DNA from: a virus | Length of the DNA stretch: 20,077 nucleotides | Reading direction: 5' to 3' (one strand) | IMG/VR virus record: IMGVR_UViG_3300013127_000044 | Span: 1-20,077 of that record | Shown here: piece after piece, positions 440-6,538 of the stretch | Layout: each line of letters starts with the position of its first letter | How positions within the stretch are numbered: the first letter of the stretch is position 1 | Translations under genes and position numbers: made by a program | Notes under the pieces: generated by a model | Database searches by the model: none | What the model was told of the DNA's origin: nothing | Seen by the model: only the letters and a program-made list of their open reading frames with translations

Positions 440-548
440 TATATTCAAGCGTCTAAGCGATCTATCCGTGTTCGAGGAAGTCGCTGACCCCTTGGGAAGT
501 AATATTCCCATGTTCAAGGTGAAGGATGAACTCTGCGAGAGTGACTAA
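309..548 (+). CDS. Small hypothetical protein, overprinted on the first gene
   Basis: A 79-aa basic to neutral protein in a different frame from the first gene, sharing 309-439 with it and 526-548 with the next gene. It has a well-placed SD (GGAG, 7-base spacing). It fills the otherwise uncovered stretch 440-525. The composition is protein-like: helices rich in L and K, then a segment ending in a beta-like FKVKDEL, loosely reminiscent of a winged helix. I recognise no family. The alternative is a +1 frameshift extension of the first protein, but the dedicated SD favours an independent start. Confidence 0.6.
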   Translation: MSRKVKLTKQHLNRLHPGDLMLLLFLRDQGLKSKLQLLQMLGPDIFKRLSDLSVFEEVADPLGSNIPMFKVKDELCESD

Positions 549-1824
549 CATCAAGAAGGCGTTCGGCATGCCTTCCGCAGACAGCGCGCACCAGTACGTG
601 TTCCGGACTGGTGAGTACGGGACGTTCTACCAGTACTGGTGGCGCGATCCTGCCGGTAACTACTATCGCTACACCAACGCTGCTGAGACCTCGCCTGACT
701 TCGACGCGTTCATGGGCGCACCCCTGTTGGACCCATCGCAGCCTCTGCCTGAGAAGAATCCTGAGTTCTTCACGGCCGAAGGCTACAAGCGCCACATGGC
801 GGTTCCTCAGGGAGTAGAACCCTCACGTAATCCAGCCTACAACCAGAACGACGGACGAAGCATTTGGTTTGAGGTCTTCCAGAAGTCTGGACAAACCAAG
901 TACATCTACCTCGACGCTGATGTGAAGGAGAACCTGGACCTCTACGTTCAGAACCAGCTTCGTGTAGTTGACGCGTCTCTGGCGAACTACCGTGCCTATG
1001 CCACTTCTTTGTTCACTGGTAAGCACCCGAAGGACAAGCTTACTGGCGCGGTGATGCTGTTGTGCGACCAGGGTTTCTACGAGCCTGAGGAGCTTACCCA
1101 AGCCACAGTAGGTGACGTGGAGTTTATCGACCAGGCAGTGATGCTGCTTGGGCGTAAGTTCGTTTGTGACTTGCGCTTCCTTGACTTCATGACCTCACTA
1201 GTGGCCGGAAGAATGCCCACCGACCCGTTGTTCGTGTACCAGACGGTGCACGGCCTCGTTCCAATGGGACCCAACTACTTGAACTCCGTGTTCTACACCA
1301 CGCGTGTTAGCCCGAAGTTCCTCCTCTGTTGGAATGCTTCCCACTTGTTCAGCCGCATCGTGAACCGCATGGCCTTCCAGAAGGTACCGGCAGAGGAAGT
1401 CGAAGAGGCAGCGTTCGATGAGCTTGCGCGCACGCTCTCTACTAGAGATGATGTTCGCTATTTGGTTGACTTCAAGGTGCGCGTGGCGTTGCTTCGCAGC
1501 TACGCAAACCAGGTGCCCGGCTCAAACGAACCGACTGTGACCAAGAGTTTGACCAGACTCATGGTTGACGACTTCGGCATCGCTGTCCTGCGCTCGGACC
1601 TGACCTCGCTGCGCCAAGACGAGCAGGAATTCTCCACCTGGTTGCAGCTTGAGCCTATGCACGACCTTTCGCCTGCTGAAGAGCAGCAGGTTCAGGAAGA
1701 ACTTCAGGCTCAGCAGCAGGAGCCCGCTGCTGAGGAATCCGCTCCAGCGGCACCAGAGACTCCCGCAAGTCCTGAGGATACTAAGGAGCCTCCTCCAACT
1801 TCTGACACGGAGGCTCCCGAATGA
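526..1824 (+). CDS. Topoisomerase IB-like protein, probably catalytically inactive
   Basis: A 432-aa protein. Residues 111-345 follow the order of landmarks in the type IB topoisomerase core as I recall it: a strand pair with KYIYL (125-129), a helix DKLTGAVMLLCD (170-181) matching the family's AVxLLD helix, TVGDVEF (194-200), LGRK (208-211), DPLFVY (233-238), and SPKFLLCWNAS (262-272) matching the family's TAKxFRTxxAS. The catalytic arginine expected after the LLD helix is F183. The arginine of the FRT motif is replaced in KFLLCW (264-269). For the tyrosine, RSY at 324-326 is one candidate, while the NxPxV-KS segment (334-341) ends in Leu. The family normally relaxes supercoils by a transient 3'-phosphotyrosine link; losing both arginines should abolish that. 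Residues 385-432 are an acidic, Q/E/P-rich tail. AAGGTGA lies just before the ATG. The stop overlaps the next start (ATGA). A DNA-binding virion or packaging role is inference. Confidence 0.6.
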   Translation: MNSARVTNIKKAFGMPSADSAHQYVFRTGEYGTFYQYWWRDPAGNYYRYTNAAETSPDFDAFMGAPLLDPSQPLPEKNPEFFTAEGYKRHMAVPQGVEPSRNPAYNQNDGRSIWFEVFQKSGQTKYIYLDADVKENLDLYVQNQLRVVDASLANYRAYATSLFTGKHPKDKLTGAVMLLCDQGFYEPEELTQATVGDVEFIDQAVMLLGRKFVCDLRFLDFMTSLVAGRMPTDPLFVYQTVHGLVPMGPNYLNSVFYTTRVSPKFLLCWNASHLFSRIVNRMAFQKVPAEEVEEAAFDELARTLSTRDDVRYLVDFKVRVALLRSYANQVPGSNEPTVTKSLTRLMVDDFGIAVLRSDLTSLRQDEQEFSTWLQLEPMHDLSPAEEQQVQEELQAQQQEPAAEESAPAAPETPASPEDTKEPPPTSDTEAPE

Positions 1825-2945
1825 CTGACGATCTATTCGACAAGTTCGACGCATGGGAACCTCTCTTCAAGGCTCGCAAGGCTAAGGGGTTGGACAAGTG
1901 GGAACGCCTCAAGAACATCAGCGAAAAGCTTCAAGGCAAGGATGTTCGGGCGATTTCCTTCACTTGTGCACACCCATCGCACGGCGGAGCCGCTGTGAAG
2001 CACCTTTTGGGCTCCGTAGAGGGAAACCTTCACTTCCTTCTTGGTTACGGCAATCCGAAGTTCCACCTTGCACCCTACCACTGGCAGATCATCGATCCGA
2101 ACATCACGGACGAGGAAGCTGTCGAAATGAGCGCCAGGATGAACCATCCAGCGAATGTGGTGCTGTGGTCGAAGTCTGGGCTCGTTGCAGAGGACGAAGG
2201 GGACGTAACTGAAGGAGATCCCCACGAACTCAAGGTAACTACTGCTCCGAAGAAGGAAAAGGGCAGTGATGGCATCAAGGTTCGCTCCGCAGCCGGGGTG
2301 TACACATGCTATCCGTCCGAGGGGCTAGTGTATGGCGAGCACAACGGCCACTACTACACTTGGGACCTCGTCAAGGACACGTTCTTTGCCGCGCAGAATC
2401 CTGAAGTTGTGGAGGCTATGTCCGCCGCTGACACGTTGAAGAGTATGAACGGAGTAGTTTTCCGCACTGGTATCCCCTCCGCGCTCAGGGACTACACCCG
2501 ACAGTTCGCAGGCGAAACGTTTGCTGACGACGTGTGGCCGCTGGTCAAGAGCAAGATGCCGGTGCCTGGCAAGATTCTGAAGCTAGAGAACTCGTACGGT
2601 GAGACCCTGTTTGGTGTGACGACTCCTACCGCGCTGGAGTTCTTCGATCGCGCAGCTAACAAGGTGTCCGTGCAGCTATTTGACCGGAAGTACGACCACT
2701 TCGATCTGGTTCGAGATGGTAATGTACCTCCTGCATCCCTGTTCAGTCTGCTGAACAAGCACTTCAAGATCAACAAGGCCCTGCTGTCCGAGGTTACTGC
2801 CCCTTCCAAGGCTGTGACTAAGGGTGGTGTGTTCAGCGTTGAGGGTACTGCTTCGCCGGGGTGGGACGATGTGCCTGCTGACGGTGAGGACTTCCAGAAG
2901 GCGATTGTCGTAGACGGGGACGTGCTAAAGGTGGTACGCGTATGA
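1821..2945 (+). CDS. Hypothetical protein next to the topoisomerase-like gene
   Basis: A 374-aa soluble protein with no signal peptide or membrane segment, not recognised. The N-terminal part (about 1-120) carries a His/Cys-rich stretch from FTCAHPSHGG (47-56) to YHWQ (86-89). A charged linker at about 125-150 (LVAEDEGDVTEGD, KKEKG) separates it from a second domain rich in aromatic residues. A final segment is acidic. It is translationally coupled on both sides by ATGA overlaps, upstream with the topoisomerase-like gene and downstream with the zinc-ribbon gene, so the three products are probably made together. Its place before the prohead protease is where portal-associated or head-completion genes often lie, but I see no portal features, and the function is unassigned. 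Confidence 0.75.
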   Translation: MTDDLFDKFDAWEPLFKARKAKGLDKWERLKNISEKLQGKDVRAISFTCAHPSHGGAAVKHLLGSVEGNLHFLLGYGNPKFHLAPYHWQIIDPNITDEEAVEMSARMNHPANVVLWSKSGLVAEDEGDVTEGDPHELKVTTAPKKEKGSDGIKVRSAAGVYTCYPSEGLVYGEHNGHYYTWDLVKDTFFAAQNPEVVEAMSAADTLKSMNGVVFRTGIPSALRDYTRQFAGETFADDVWPLVKSKMPVPGKILKLENSYGETLFGVTTPTALEFFDRAANKVSVQLFDRKYDHFDLVRDGNVPPASLFSLLNKHFKINKALLSEVTAPSKAVTKGGVFSVEGTASPGWDDVPADGEDFQKAIVVDGDVLKVVRV

Positions 2946-3178
2946 CTCATCTTGTCCACTGTTCCTGCGGAGAAGTGATCGTGAAGTCCCTTGGGCCTGA
3001 TACCAAGGTGCGTGCGAAGGTGCTCGTCTTCAAGAACGACACAGCCTATGCCGTGTGCAAAAGTTGTGATACGGAGGTCGAGGTTCCCTTGCAACTCAAC
3101 ACAGAGATGCTAAAGTCTATGTCCGCGCCTGAAAAGTCTCGCAACGTTCCGCTGTACATCAGAACTCCACGTCGATGA
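2942..3178 (+). CDS. Small zinc-ribbon protein
   Basis: A 78-aa protein with two cysteine pairs, HCSCG (C7 and C9) and CKSCD (C39 and C42), separated by a beta-rich stretch. This is a zinc-ribbon layout, although the first pair is CxC rather than CxxC; H6 could also be a ligand. The C-terminus is basic and ends in PRR. Small zinc ribbons of this type occur often in phages as nucleic-acid-binding or regulatory proteins, but the partner here is unknown. It overlaps the preceding stop by four bases and is the last gene before the intergenic control region at 3179-3298, so it ends the first operon segment. Confidence 0.75.
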   Translation: MTHLVHCSCGEVIVKSLGPDTKVRAKVLVFKNDTAYAVCKSCDTEVEVPLQLNTEMLKSMSAPEKSRNVPLYIRTPRR

Positions 3179-3298: not shown

Positions 3299-4078
3299 AT
3301 GGAAAAAGGCTGGGTCGACGAAGATACGTTCTCCTGTTTTGTTCCGGCTCAGATGGTTGTCGTCAAGGGCGGCGAGCAGGGAGCGGACAAGACCGGGAAG
3401 CGGTGGATTCAGGGCATTGCGTCCACGGACGGTCGTGACTTGCAGGGAGAGATCATTGACCAGAGTGGTATCGACCTCTCCTACTTTCTGAAGAACGGTT
3501 ACTTCAACGACGACCACAAGGCCGGACCTGAGTATAAGGTGGGCCAGCCTACAGAGGCGAAGCTGACTAAGAATGGCTTGTGGGTAAAGGGTTTCTTGCT
3601 CAAGAATCCAGATCCGACGAAGGAAAGCAGAGCAGACTACTACTGGAACTTGATGAGGCAGTTGGATGCCTCCGGATCTGATCGCAAGGTAGGGTTCTCG
3701 ATTCAGGGTAAGGTACTTCGCAGGAGTGGTACTCGGATCGAAAAGTGCTGGATTCAGGATATCGCTATCACCACCCAGCCTGTGAATACCGCAACGTGGG
3801 CAGAGATTGCAAAGTCTCTATCGTCTCAGAAGTGGGACCTAGAGAAGGACAAGGATGCTGAGAAGAAGGAAGCCGAGAAGGCACTCTCAGTAGGCGCTGG
3901 TAGCCCAGTAGTACCTCAGAGCCTGGATGGTTCGCAGAAGAACGTTGTGACAGCAAACAAGAGCATGCTTAGCTATACGGAAGCATGTGCAATGGTTAAG
4001 AGTCAAACCGGCCTCGACAACGAAGAGGCTGTAAAGGCCATCGTCAATATCGCGTTTGGTCTATTTGGACAGGAGTGA
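3299..4078 (+). CDS. Prohead (capsid maturation) protease
   Basis: A 259-aa protein with the pattern of a phage prohead serine protease of the HK97/herpesvirus-assemblin type. A histidine sits in FNDDHK (H73), followed by GLWVKGFLL (93-101), a strand-turn-strand as in the family. The nucleophile segment VGFSIQGKV (131-139) has S134, and IQDIAITTQPVNTAT (152-166) matches the family's conserved segment ending in xTxPVNxxA. These proteases cut scaffold and capsid N-termini during prohead maturation. Residues 180-200 are a K/E-rich linker, and the C-terminal 50 residues form a separate helical segment that may anchor it to the scaffold. AAGG lies 5 bases before the ATG. It is followed closely by the scaffold-like and capsid genes, the usual order. 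Confidence 0.85.
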   Translation: MEKGWVDEDTFSCFVPAQMVVVKGGEQGADKTGKRWIQGIASTDGRDLQGEIIDQSGIDLSYFLKNGYFNDDHKAGPEYKVGQPTEAKLTKNGLWVKGFLLKNPDPTKESRADYYWNLMRQLDASGSDRKVGFSIQGKVLRRSGTRIEKCWIQDIAITTQPVNTATWAEIAKSLSSQKWDLEKDKDAEKKEAEKALSVGAGSPVVPQSLDGSQKNVVTANKSMLSYTEACAMVKSQTGLDNEEAVKAIVNIAFGLFGQE

Positions 4079-4083
4079 GGAAC

Positions 4084-5049
4084 ATGACGGAGAAGAAGAT
4101 CGAAACTGGTGATCTCCAGAAGGCACTACAGTCCCTACAGGACCTAGCAAAGGGCCACAACTCCCGTGGCACGGCTACTACTGAGGTGGTTGGAATGGCG
4201 AGCGAGTCGGGACCTACCCAGGTTTTCCACACCGCAAGCAACTCTGACCCCGGCTCGTGGGCGGGCTCGAAGGGTGAGAGCGAAGACTGGAGCGACTCGA
4301 TCGGTCCAGACGGCACTGACTACAAGGCGGCAGGCGCGAAGATGCGTAAGAGCATCCTCGACAAGATCGCCAAGGGCGCAGCACTGACGCAGGGCGAGAA
4401 GAACTTCGTTGCCAAGGGTGGCCTTGACAAGTTCAAGGACATGGACAAGGGCATGGCTCCTCCCTTCATGAAGAAGGACAAGGACGACGACGACAAGGAA
4501 GTTGAGAAGGCAGCGGGGCACGGCGACGAGGCTGAGGACCGCAAGCTCATCAGCGAGATGATGGACAAGGACAAGAAGAAGGACGTTGCGAAGTCCTTTA
4601 CCGACCACGCAGCAGACAATGCTGCTGTGAAGAGCGGCTTCGAGGTGTCCGAGTTCCTCGCAGGCTTCGCGCAGGTCATGCACAAGTCTCTTGTGTCCAT
4701 GGAAGCGCGTATCACCGACCGTGTTCTCACCGGCATCGCGAAGTCGGACGTGGAGCAGGGCGAAGTACAGAAGTCCATGGCAGAAGCACTCGCTCGCCTT
4801 GGAGAGGTACTCGCGGCACAGGCACAGCGTATCGAGCAGGTGGAGTCGGGTCCATCGCGTGCTGCGAAGAGCACTCTCTCGAAGTCTGGCGCAGAGCAGC
4901 AGCCACAGGAGTTGAGCAAGTCCCAGGTAACTGGTGCGCTTGTTGAGCTCGTTCAGAAGGGCCAGGCAACGGCACAGGATGTTCTCAAGTTCGACGCTAC
5001 TGGCGAACTTTCTCCTGAGCTTCGCAACAAGGTAGTCGGTCGTCGCTAA
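4084..5049 (+). CDS. Scaffold-like capsid assembly protein
   Basis: A highly charged 321-aa protein lying between prohead protease and major capsid protein, the usual place of the scaffolding gene. The N-terminal third is polar and G/S/D-rich. The middle holds long K/D/E runs (for example KKDKDDDDKEVEK). The segment from about residue 195 to 260 is a predicted helix or coiled coil (VMHKSLVSMEARITDR, then EALARLGEVLAAQAQRIEQVE). The C-terminus is a compact helical segment ending in VVGRR. This composition fits an internal scaffold removed by the protease; the assignment rests on position and composition. A GTG at 4075 is in frame, but ATG 4084 has AGGAG (4071-4075) at an 8-base spacing and is preferred. 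Confidence 0.7.
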   Translation: MTEKKIETGDLQKALQSLQDLAKGHNSRGTATTEVVGMASESGPTQVFHTASNSDPGSWAGSKGESEDWSDSIGPDGTDYKAAGAKMRKSILDKIAKGAALTQGEKNFVAKGGLDKFKDMDKGMAPPFMKKDKDDDDKEVEKAAGHGDEAEDRKLISEMMDKDKKKDVAKSFTDHAADNAAVKSGFEVSEFLAGFAQVMHKSLVSMEARITDRVLTGIAKSDVEQGEVQKSMAEALARLGEVLAAQAQRIEQVESGPSRAAKSTLSKSGAEQQPQELSKSQVTGALVELVQKGQATAQDVLKFDATGELSPELRNKVVGRR

Positions 5050-5086: not shown

Positions 5087-6538
5087 ATGACTGTAGGACT
5101 AAGAGCATTCCAGGCAGGTTCTATCGGCTCTGGTTTCGGCGCAGGTAGCGAAGCTGACATTGCTGAACTCAGCAAGGCCCTTGAAGCCGGTTACCAGGTT
5201 GGTGCTGGCAAGACGGGCGGTAGCGCACTTCGCGTAGAGTCTCTTGAGGCAAGCCTCAAGGTACTTACGTACACCTCTTCTCACGTGAAGATGTGGAAGA
5301 AGATGCCGAAGAGCCCAGCGTACTCTACTGTCGAAGAGTACAACCAGTTGACTGACTACGGCGGAGAGTCTTCTCCGTTCGTACAGGAAGGTGAACTTCC
5401 TCAGGCAACTGACTCCAGCTACGTACGTCGTACGCAGCTTGTGAAGTTCCTCGGTACGACCCGTGAGATCACCCACCAGGCGACGCTCGTCCACCCTGCG
5501 CATGGTGACCTCATCGCCCTTGAGAACCAGAACGGTATCCTCTGGCTGCTCCAGCAGGTAGAGCGTTCGATGTTCACTGGCGATTCGTCGCTCGCATTCG
5601 ACGGTGAGTCGGAGCAGTGGGACGGTCTCGACGCCCTCATCGACGCGGCGAACGTGATCGACCTCGAAGGCAACACGCTCCAGGAGGCGGACATTGAGGA
5701 GGCAGCAAACCTCATCATCGAGAACTACGGTTTCCCAACCGACATGTTCCTCGGTACCCGCACCATGAGCGACCTCGTGAAGACGTTCTACCCACGTGAG
5801 CGCATTCAGCTTCCTGCTCCGATGAACGGACAGGTAGGTAACACCATCCAGACGATGGCTACCCAGGCTGGCGTGATCGAGTTCAACCCGGACATCTTCA
5901 TCCGCCGCACCCCAACCCCGCCAGCAGCGGCAACGTCTGCATCGGCTCCTGCAACCCCAGCTTCGATCGTTGCTGGTGCACCGGCAGGCACGAATGGCGA
6001 CCACAACAAGGGCGCGCCAGCAGGCACGTCGAACTTCGCGTACCTCGTGACGGCATGTAACCGCTTCGGTGAGTCGGCTCCTGTAGCCTTCGCTGGTGCA
6101 GTGACCGCCCTTACCCAGGTGCAGAAGGATGCGGGCAACGCGCTTCCTCTCACGGTAACCAACCCAGCAGTAATCGGCGCATTCCCTCCAGAATTCTTCC
6201 GAATCTATCGCTCGGTAGCTGCGACCTCGGCAGTTGTGCCTAGCTCGCTCGCTCAGTACGCCCTCATCGCGCAGGTTCCTGCGCTGAGCCAGGCGGCGGC
6301 TGGTGTGACGACCTTCACGGATGTGAACCTCATCCTTCCGTTCACGTCGTCCGCATACCTCGGAGAGATGACCCCGAACGTAATGACGTTCCGTCAGCTC
6401 ATGCCTCTGATGAAGATGGATCTCGCGGTTCTCTCGCCTGCATATCGCTGGATGATCCTGCTCTACGGTACGCCAATCCTCTTCGCTCCGAAGAAGTGGA
6501 TGCGCTTCATCAACGTAGGTCAGTTGAACCTCCGCTGA
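5087..6538 (+). CDS. Major capsid protein (HK97 fold) with FN3-like insertion
   Basis: A 483-aa protein that forms the icosahedral shell. The segments and gene order fit an HK97-type capsid protein: a charged N-arm, an extended E-loop-like region with KFLGTTREITHQA (120-132), a long helix around 140-163 (ALENQNGILWLLQQVERSMF), the stretch DALIDAANVIDLEG (182-195), and a C-terminal beta segment (YRWMILLYGTPILFAPKKW, 453-471). Residues about 274-420 interrupt this with a P/A-rich linker and a fibronectin-III-like domain: YLVTACNRFGESAPV (319-333), FFRIYRSV (370-377), YALIAQVPA (391-399) and TTFTDV (408-413). It has a very strong SD (AAGGAG, 9-base spacing, in an A-rich leader) and a strong bias to C/G-ending codons, as expected for the most abundant virion protein. 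Confidence 0.88.
   Translation: MTVGLRAFQAGSIGSGFGAGSEADIAELSKALEAGYQVGAGKTGGSALRVESLEASLKVLTYTSSHVKMWKKMPKSPAYSTVEEYNQLTDYGGESSPFVQEGELPQATDSSYVRRTQLVKFLGTTREITHQATLVHPAHGDLIALENQNGILWLLQQVERSMFTGDSSLAFDGESEQWDGLDALIDAANVIDLEGNTLQEADIEEAANLIIENYGFPTDMFLGTRTMSDLVKTFYPRERIQLPAPMNGQVGNTIQTMATQAGVIEFNPDIFIRRTPTPPAAATSASAPATPASIVAGAPAGTNGDHNKGAPAGTSNFAYLVTACNRFGESAPVAFAGAVTALTQVQKDAGNALPLTVTNPAVIGAFPPEFFRIYRSVAATSAVVPSSLAQYALIAQVPALSQAAAGVTTFTDVNLILPFTSSAYLGEMTPNVMTFRQLMPLMKMDLAVLSPAYRWMILLYGTPILFAPKKWMRFINVGQLNLR

Follow-up and report, generated by a model that had tools for sequence, protein, structure and literature searches.

Locus organization and gene neighborhood

The window, meaning the whole 20,077-nt stretch of DNA analyzed here, represents part of an uncultured phage genome, and its genes for capsid, protease and scaffold have relatives in SPO1-type phages. 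All window features described below lie on the plus strand. The gene at 526–1824 is a genuine open reading frame encoding 432 aa, and the reading frame, the predicted fold and locus comparison together identify its product as a type IB topoisomerase (TopIB)-like protein of the head module. Its stop codon falls inside a 4-nt ATGA overlap with the gene at 1821–2945, which encodes a 374-aa uncharacterized protein and is the next gene in every locus extending that far except the divergent L084. Upstream lies the gene for an acidic 144-aa head-module protein (5–439), recognized by locus comparison, charge and motif columns and carrying a conserved lysine motif at K38. Downstream are a 78-aa Cys-rich protein with two conserved lysine motifs (2942–3178; locus comparison and motif columns), the prohead (head maturation) protease with a conserved K172 at the end of its catalytic domain (3299–4078; phrog_1028, 3.3e-50), the head scaffolding protein with many such motifs (4075–5049; phrog_15087) and the major capsid protein (MCP) with a conserved motif at K30, LSKAL (5087–6538; phrog_752, 9.7e-111). 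The window MCP is approximately 42–45% identical to those of Spounavirinae.

When we compared the main-group loci whose contig reaches far enough, the gene order was constant: portal, InPase, small genes, MuF/kinase, 81 aa, 144 aa, TopIB-like, 374 aa, 78 aa, protease, scaffold and MCP. L084 departs from this order in the interval from the TopIB-like to the 78-aa gene. A preliminary description of this DNA had placed the gene in a virion gene cluster and had noted its ATGA overlap with the following gene; both observations extend beyond the window, as the head cluster is kept in every locus with flanking sequence and a close 4-nt or 1-nt junction is present in nearly all relatives. In the two cultured SPO1-type phages examined, the portal gene is followed directly by the protease gene, without the intervening cassette. 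Within that cassette, the MuF-type head protein at L009:4456–7233 is fused to a PI3/PI4-kinase-like domain (PF00454, 1.7e-6), and Pfam identifies zeta-toxin-like kinase and zinc metallopeptidase domains in the L084 neighborhood. The MuF/kinase fusion carries a lysine motif shortly after its MuF domain and is a candidate ejected kinase.

A small gene at 309–548, encoding 79 aa, shares sequence with the 144-aa gene in another reading frame and also overlaps the start of the TopIB-like gene. Homologue comparison places it at the same position in the close group, with 36–68% identity; its product had no Pfam match and by eye resembles a small winged-helix protein. Homing-endonuclease-type genes also lie between the structural genes, one of the LAGLIDADG type (PF14528, 9958–10644) and one of the HNH type (PF01844, 13403–13921).

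Homologues and selection

The 432-aa protein had no match in Pfam, in PHROGs, among PDB sequences or in 50,697 records of cultured phages, its family profile had none in the PDB, and scans of bacterial and archaeal genomes likewise returned none. Its homologues came from IMG/VR environmental contigs only. They comprise a close group at 61–73% identity, a sister group at approximately 45% with an additional His-rich N-terminal domain, four more distant proteins (L033, L069, L076 and L077) and a very divergent 916-aa fusion in L084 at 27% identity. The landmark order of a type IB topoisomerase core that the preliminary description had read from the single sequence is present throughout, with all landmarks in order and conserved in 27–28 homologues.

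The added N-terminal regions have features of their own. In the L023–L035 proteins the His-rich domain (GHKGHAHRW...) is weakly YmaF-like (PF12788, E 0.02) and is absent from the group to which the window belongs. In L084 (6420–9170) the TopIB-like domain occupies the C-terminus, with Arg I kept, and the N-terminal half contains a short YTKRTGxPGNYKYEYG-like motif common to several neighboring proteins, possibly a targeting signal.

Close pairs of TopIB-like genes gave dN/dS values of approximately 0.01–0.09, indicating strong purifying selection. We considered neutral decay into a pseudogene and rejected it on the basis of these values and the strict conservation. The C-terminal part of the protein is also under constraint, with E366, F369, W372 and H379 conserved; it must therefore be functional ahead of any cleavage, a point that weighs against the processing model presented below.

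A type IB topoisomerase fold

We obtained an AF2 model of the 432-aa protein (residues 12–385, alignment of 28 homologues) with a pLDDT of 85.5 and a pTM of 0.84; an earlier model built with just 5 close homologues had reached a pLDDT of 38.6 and was unusable. When the model was searched against the PDB with Foldseek, all 12 matches at E ≤ 1e-3 were type IB topoisomerases, and the top 13 matches were the Deinococcus, variola, archaeal and human enzymes, the best being Deinococcus TopIB (PDB 2f4q) at E 4.1e-6 over 305 columns. These 13 chains were followed by one spurious membrane transporter and then by Cre at E 0.056 and worse. The TM-scores against the PDB matches were modest (0.3–0.6), owing to a different relative orientation of the two domains. 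Both parts of the TopIB fold, an N-terminal beta domain and a catalytic-type helical domain, were found in the model, and within the predicted mature fragment (residues 12–340) they map to 559–1545. A tyrosine recombinase as the nearest family was considered and rejected, as TopIB ranked ahead of Cre and the tyrosine recombinase/phage integrase model PF00589 had no match to the protein.

Profile comparison led to the same family. Using hhalign, we aligned the 432-aa family to nine genuine bacterial TopIB proteins and obtained a score of 36.5 (P = 5.6e-4), compared with at most 24.4 for 60 column shuffles and 16.0 for the reversed alignment. Each half carried signal separately, the Arg I half scoring 27.3 against a maximum of 18.8 among 100 shuffles and the Arg II half 23.6 against a maximum of 17.2 among 100 shuffles. 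The N-terminal domain alone gave no significant profile match to TopIB, its assignment being structure-based, and the C-terminal end of the fold, containing the His and Tyr positions, scored below the shuffles. At the Pfam level, the Topoisom_I model PF01028 does not recognize the sequence. Thus the two routes by which the preliminary description had proposed to check its TopIB assignment, profile-profile comparison and AlphaFold modeling followed by structure search, both upheld it, and the protein almost certainly has a type IB topoisomerase fold.

Loss of the catalytic arginines

Type IB topoisomerases require two catalytic arginines for transition-state stabilization. In the hhalign alignment the Arg I position falls on E186 (1081–1083), in a column that holds E, Q, D and other residues; arginine is missing from it in 26/27 proteins and occurs only in L084, LLDQGRFRATEL. 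The Arg II position falls on L267 (1324–1326), where KFLLCW stands against KDFRTW in TopIB, and the column contains L in 22 proteins, M in 2, Q and H, with arginine again missing in 26/27 and present only in L033. The preliminary description had assigned the two positions to F183 and to the leucine of KFLLCW. The profile confirms the second of these and moves the first to E186, residue 183 being a glycine and F184 and Y185 adjoining E186. The loss of both arginines, for which an alignment of homologues had been suggested as a check, is therefore conserved across the family.

The remaining catalytic positions are less sharply placed. R210-K211 (1153–1158) is conserved and lies in the hairpin where TopIB has its catalytic lysine; in this family that hairpin is shorter, and the exact lysine column is uncertain. 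By forced alignment alone, which is not significant on its own, T306 (1441–1443) tentatively occupies the catalytic His/Asn position and D315 (1468–1470), an aspartate in 27/27 proteins, tentatively that of the nucleophilic tyrosine. Y326 (1501–1503), named earlier as one candidate for an ambiguous tyrosine, is near-invariant (26/27), which keeps it as an alternative, but it lies in the next helix, 11 residues past D315, and not at the profile-aligned column.

As judged from these substitutions, the protein is very probably inactive as a topoisomerase. The jumbo-phage TopIB proteins, for example PaBG gp84, keep all five catalytic residues, and so phage TopIB proteins have not lost their arginines as a rule. 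L033 and L084 each retain one of the two arginines, a pattern that would fit their step-by-step loss after descent from an active enzyme.

A head-specific lysine motif brackets the fold

The AF2 model has a single long disordered loop (residues 333–350), and within it K340-S341 is near-invariant. It was after seeing this site in the data that we defined the motif [LIVMFWYA]-x-K-[SAG]-[LIVMFYW]; the subsequent counts of its occurrences bear it out. The head proteins of the window contain 20 motifs versus 3.5 expected, whereas its tail proteins contain 4 versus 3.8. Pooling 59 head proteins from five loci gave 118 motifs versus 30.8 expected, an approximately four-fold excess; in the same set, replacing Lys with Arg in the motif gave 9 versus 20.4 expected, and other residues gave approximately 1-fold. 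Non-head proteins from two of the same genomes, totaling approximately 49,000 aa, contained 68 motifs versus 63 expected. Many of the head sites form aligned columns, including MCP K30 (16/17), protease K172 (17/17), seven recurrent scaffold sites and MuF K305, just past the MuF domain. The protease, scaffold and MCP of SPO1-type phages also carry the motif.

In the 27 TopIB-like proteins we found 52 motifs versus 13.5 expected, and almost every one falls in one of two alignment columns flanking the fold, such that K11 and K340 bracket it almost exactly. The N-terminally fused members, namely the sister group and L084, have their first motif at the domain junction. The simplest account of the motif is that it marks a prohead-protease cleavage site. 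For this protease family one experimentally mapped site is reported, the processing of an SPO1-type capsid protein near Lys23. If the motif is the cleavage site, site 1 would be K11/A12 (556–561), releasing a predicted leader of residues 1–11 (526–558) that ends in IKK/AF, cut between K and A, at a column shared by nearly all homologues. Site 2 would be K340/S341 in the disordered loop (1543–1548), and cleavage there is predicted to remove residues 341–432 (1546–1821), the conserved C-terminal part with its acidic Pro-rich tail. From the motif, the presumed prohead-protease sites of this capsid lineage can be read off, in the SPO1-type phages examined as well, and head-processed proteins should therefore be predictable from sequence. 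In the literature searched, whose coverage was partial, we found no description of this motif.

Surface charge and possible roles

The core of the protein has a net charge of −2 to −27 and a pI of 4.7–6.0 in all homologues but one, and the N-terminal domain a pI of 4.2–5.3, again in all but one, while the charge of the catalytic-type domain is near neutral. In contrast, whole genuine TopIB proteins, bacterial and phage, mostly have a pI of 9–10, the lowest being 7.6. The neighboring genes of the cluster encode proteins of mixed charge, among which the TopIB-like protein is one of the most acidic.

These properties bear on two readings in which the protein would still act on DNA through its fold. 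A topoisomerase or recombinase that remains active by using other residues (Y326, R277 and H273) might explain why Y326 is kept in 26/27 proteins, R277 in 25/27 (K in the rest) and H273 in 22/27; however, with both catalytic arginines replaced, one by E/Q/D and the other by L, with Y326 off the aligned tyrosine site and with the basic surface gone, we regard this as very unlikely. A non-cutting clamp, in which the dead enzyme still encircles DNA for packaging, for genome organization in the head or for protection of the injected genome, would make use of both retained domains and of the basic pair R210/K211 kept in the hairpin. The N-terminal domain of TopIB binds DNA, yet here, with one homologue excepted, it is precisely this domain that is strongly acidic, in a protein among the most acidic of its cluster. 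A plain DNA clamp, which the preliminary description had offered as one option, is thus not favored, because the fold has lost its positive charge, and it appears improbable even though a superfamily paralogue, baculovirus VLF-1, is a nucleocapsid component with a packaging role (PMC11654684). Of the options raised at that stage, a head component is the better supported, given that the motif brackets the fold and the neighbors are of head-maturation and effector type.

Two other readings share the head setting. The excised domain could be an ejected effector, injected with the genome to bind, for example, host topoisomerases, nucleoid proteins or recombination proteins. Consistent with this, the cassette contains domains of ejected polyvalent proteins, including the MuF-PI3/PI4-kinase-like protein and InPase (PMC5512222), the L084 cassette adds the zeta-toxin-like kinase and zinc metallopeptidase, and the same lysine motif follows the MuF domain. 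Effector cassettes vary strongly among relatives, however, whereas essentially all members of the lineage have retained this gene, and we consider the proposal possible but tentative. The small core proteins of T4 are acidic and encoded between portal and protease, and the TopIB-like protein might similarly serve in the prohead core or in assembly and be removed before packaging. Its gene position between portal and protease, the strong acidity it has in common with the neighboring 144-aa protein and the presence of lysine motifs all point in this direction, but it has just two sites, both outside the fold, such that the fold would be spared, whereas the scaffold has many. On balance, this reading seems rather doubtful.

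We instead favor, as the moderately probable reading, an internal head protein that has a dead TopIB fold and is processed by a lysine-specific prohead protease. The computations themselves establish the fold, the missing arginines, the reversed charge, the purifying selection, the constant gene position and the head-specific lysine motif on either side of the fold; from these we infer the protease site, the location inside the head and the final role. The protein descends at full length from the type IB topoisomerase fold, its catalytic arginines and basic DNA-binding charge being gone, and the inactivated fold would have been reused inside the head. The protein would be made together with the portal, MuF, protease, scaffold and capsid proteins and enter the prohead as a precursor; we place it there because it is a presumed protease substrate. 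The lysine-specific protease would then cut after Lys11 and Lys340, freeing the TopIB-like domain (residues 12–340) from the short leader in front of it and the acidic tail at the C-terminus. The freed domain may stay in the head or exit with the DNA, as internal and ejected proteins of the T4 type do, and its final role may be that of a structural or core protein or, if ejected, one exerted by binding and not by cutting. Many phage head genes encode assembly factors that are absent from the final virion, which counts against a packaged protein. More speculatively, a whole SPO1-related lineage could have converted TopIB into an internal capsid protein that does not cut, with a lysine-specific prohead protease excising it alongside MuF-linked effectors for delivery with the genome, although we hold this fuller scenario to be less likely than otherwise. 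The literature searched, which was covered in part, contained no description of a catalytically dead TopIB encoded among phage head genes.

Comparison with known systems

Compared with bacterial TopIB (Deinococcus, PDB 2f4q; PF01028), the 432-aa family has the two-domain fold (305 columns) and the motif order in common. It differs in lacking both catalytic arginines, in being acidic and not basic, in having no Pfam-level match, in its head-gene context and in its extra C-terminal tail. TopIB in jumbo phages is already known (PMC7824862), and the proteins of PaBG (gp84) and Xanthomonas phage PhiXhv-15 are likewise TopIB in a tailed phage; however, they keep the R, K, R, H and Y residues, are basic and are presumably active, whereas the family described here has lost the arginines. 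Their genes also lie near virion genes, that of PaBG (L097 6927–8615) being separated by a few genes from the one for the major capsid protein and that of PhiXhv-15 (L098 7062–9068) near a head-tail connector gene. In PaBG, gp84 is not among the 14 identified virion bands and the adjoining gp83 is a virion protein (PMC7412058). A huge uncultured phage (L091, LR745208) encodes at 748–2274 a further TopIB domain with its catalytic residues kept and, by eye, an apparent N-terminal HAD-like fusion.

Recruitment of this superfamily to a virion has a precedent in baculovirus VLF-1, a tyrosine recombinase/TopIB superfamily member used in nucleocapsid assembly (PMC11654684, PMC3649998). VLF-1 differs in belonging to the recombinase and not the TopIB lineage, in coming from a eukaryotic virus and in its weak structural match (E 1.2). 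If our reading is correct, the fixation of a dead superfamily member in a phage head operon would represent an independent case of such recruitment. The processing that we predict resembles that of the internal head and ejection proteins of T4 and SPN3US, whose precursors are cut by the prohead protease, in SPN3US at short motifs inside the prohead (PMC10052503). The T4 and SPN3US proteases cut after Glu, whereas the motif here has Lys and cleavage is predicted from sequence. Finally, Iyer et al. (2017) described polyvalent, probably ejected phage proteins (PMC5512222), and the MuF, InPase, kinase-like and toxin-like domains of that set also occur near the TopIB-like gene. The text of that study discusses no TopIB domain, the word "topoisomerase" appearing only in a reference (PMC5512222).
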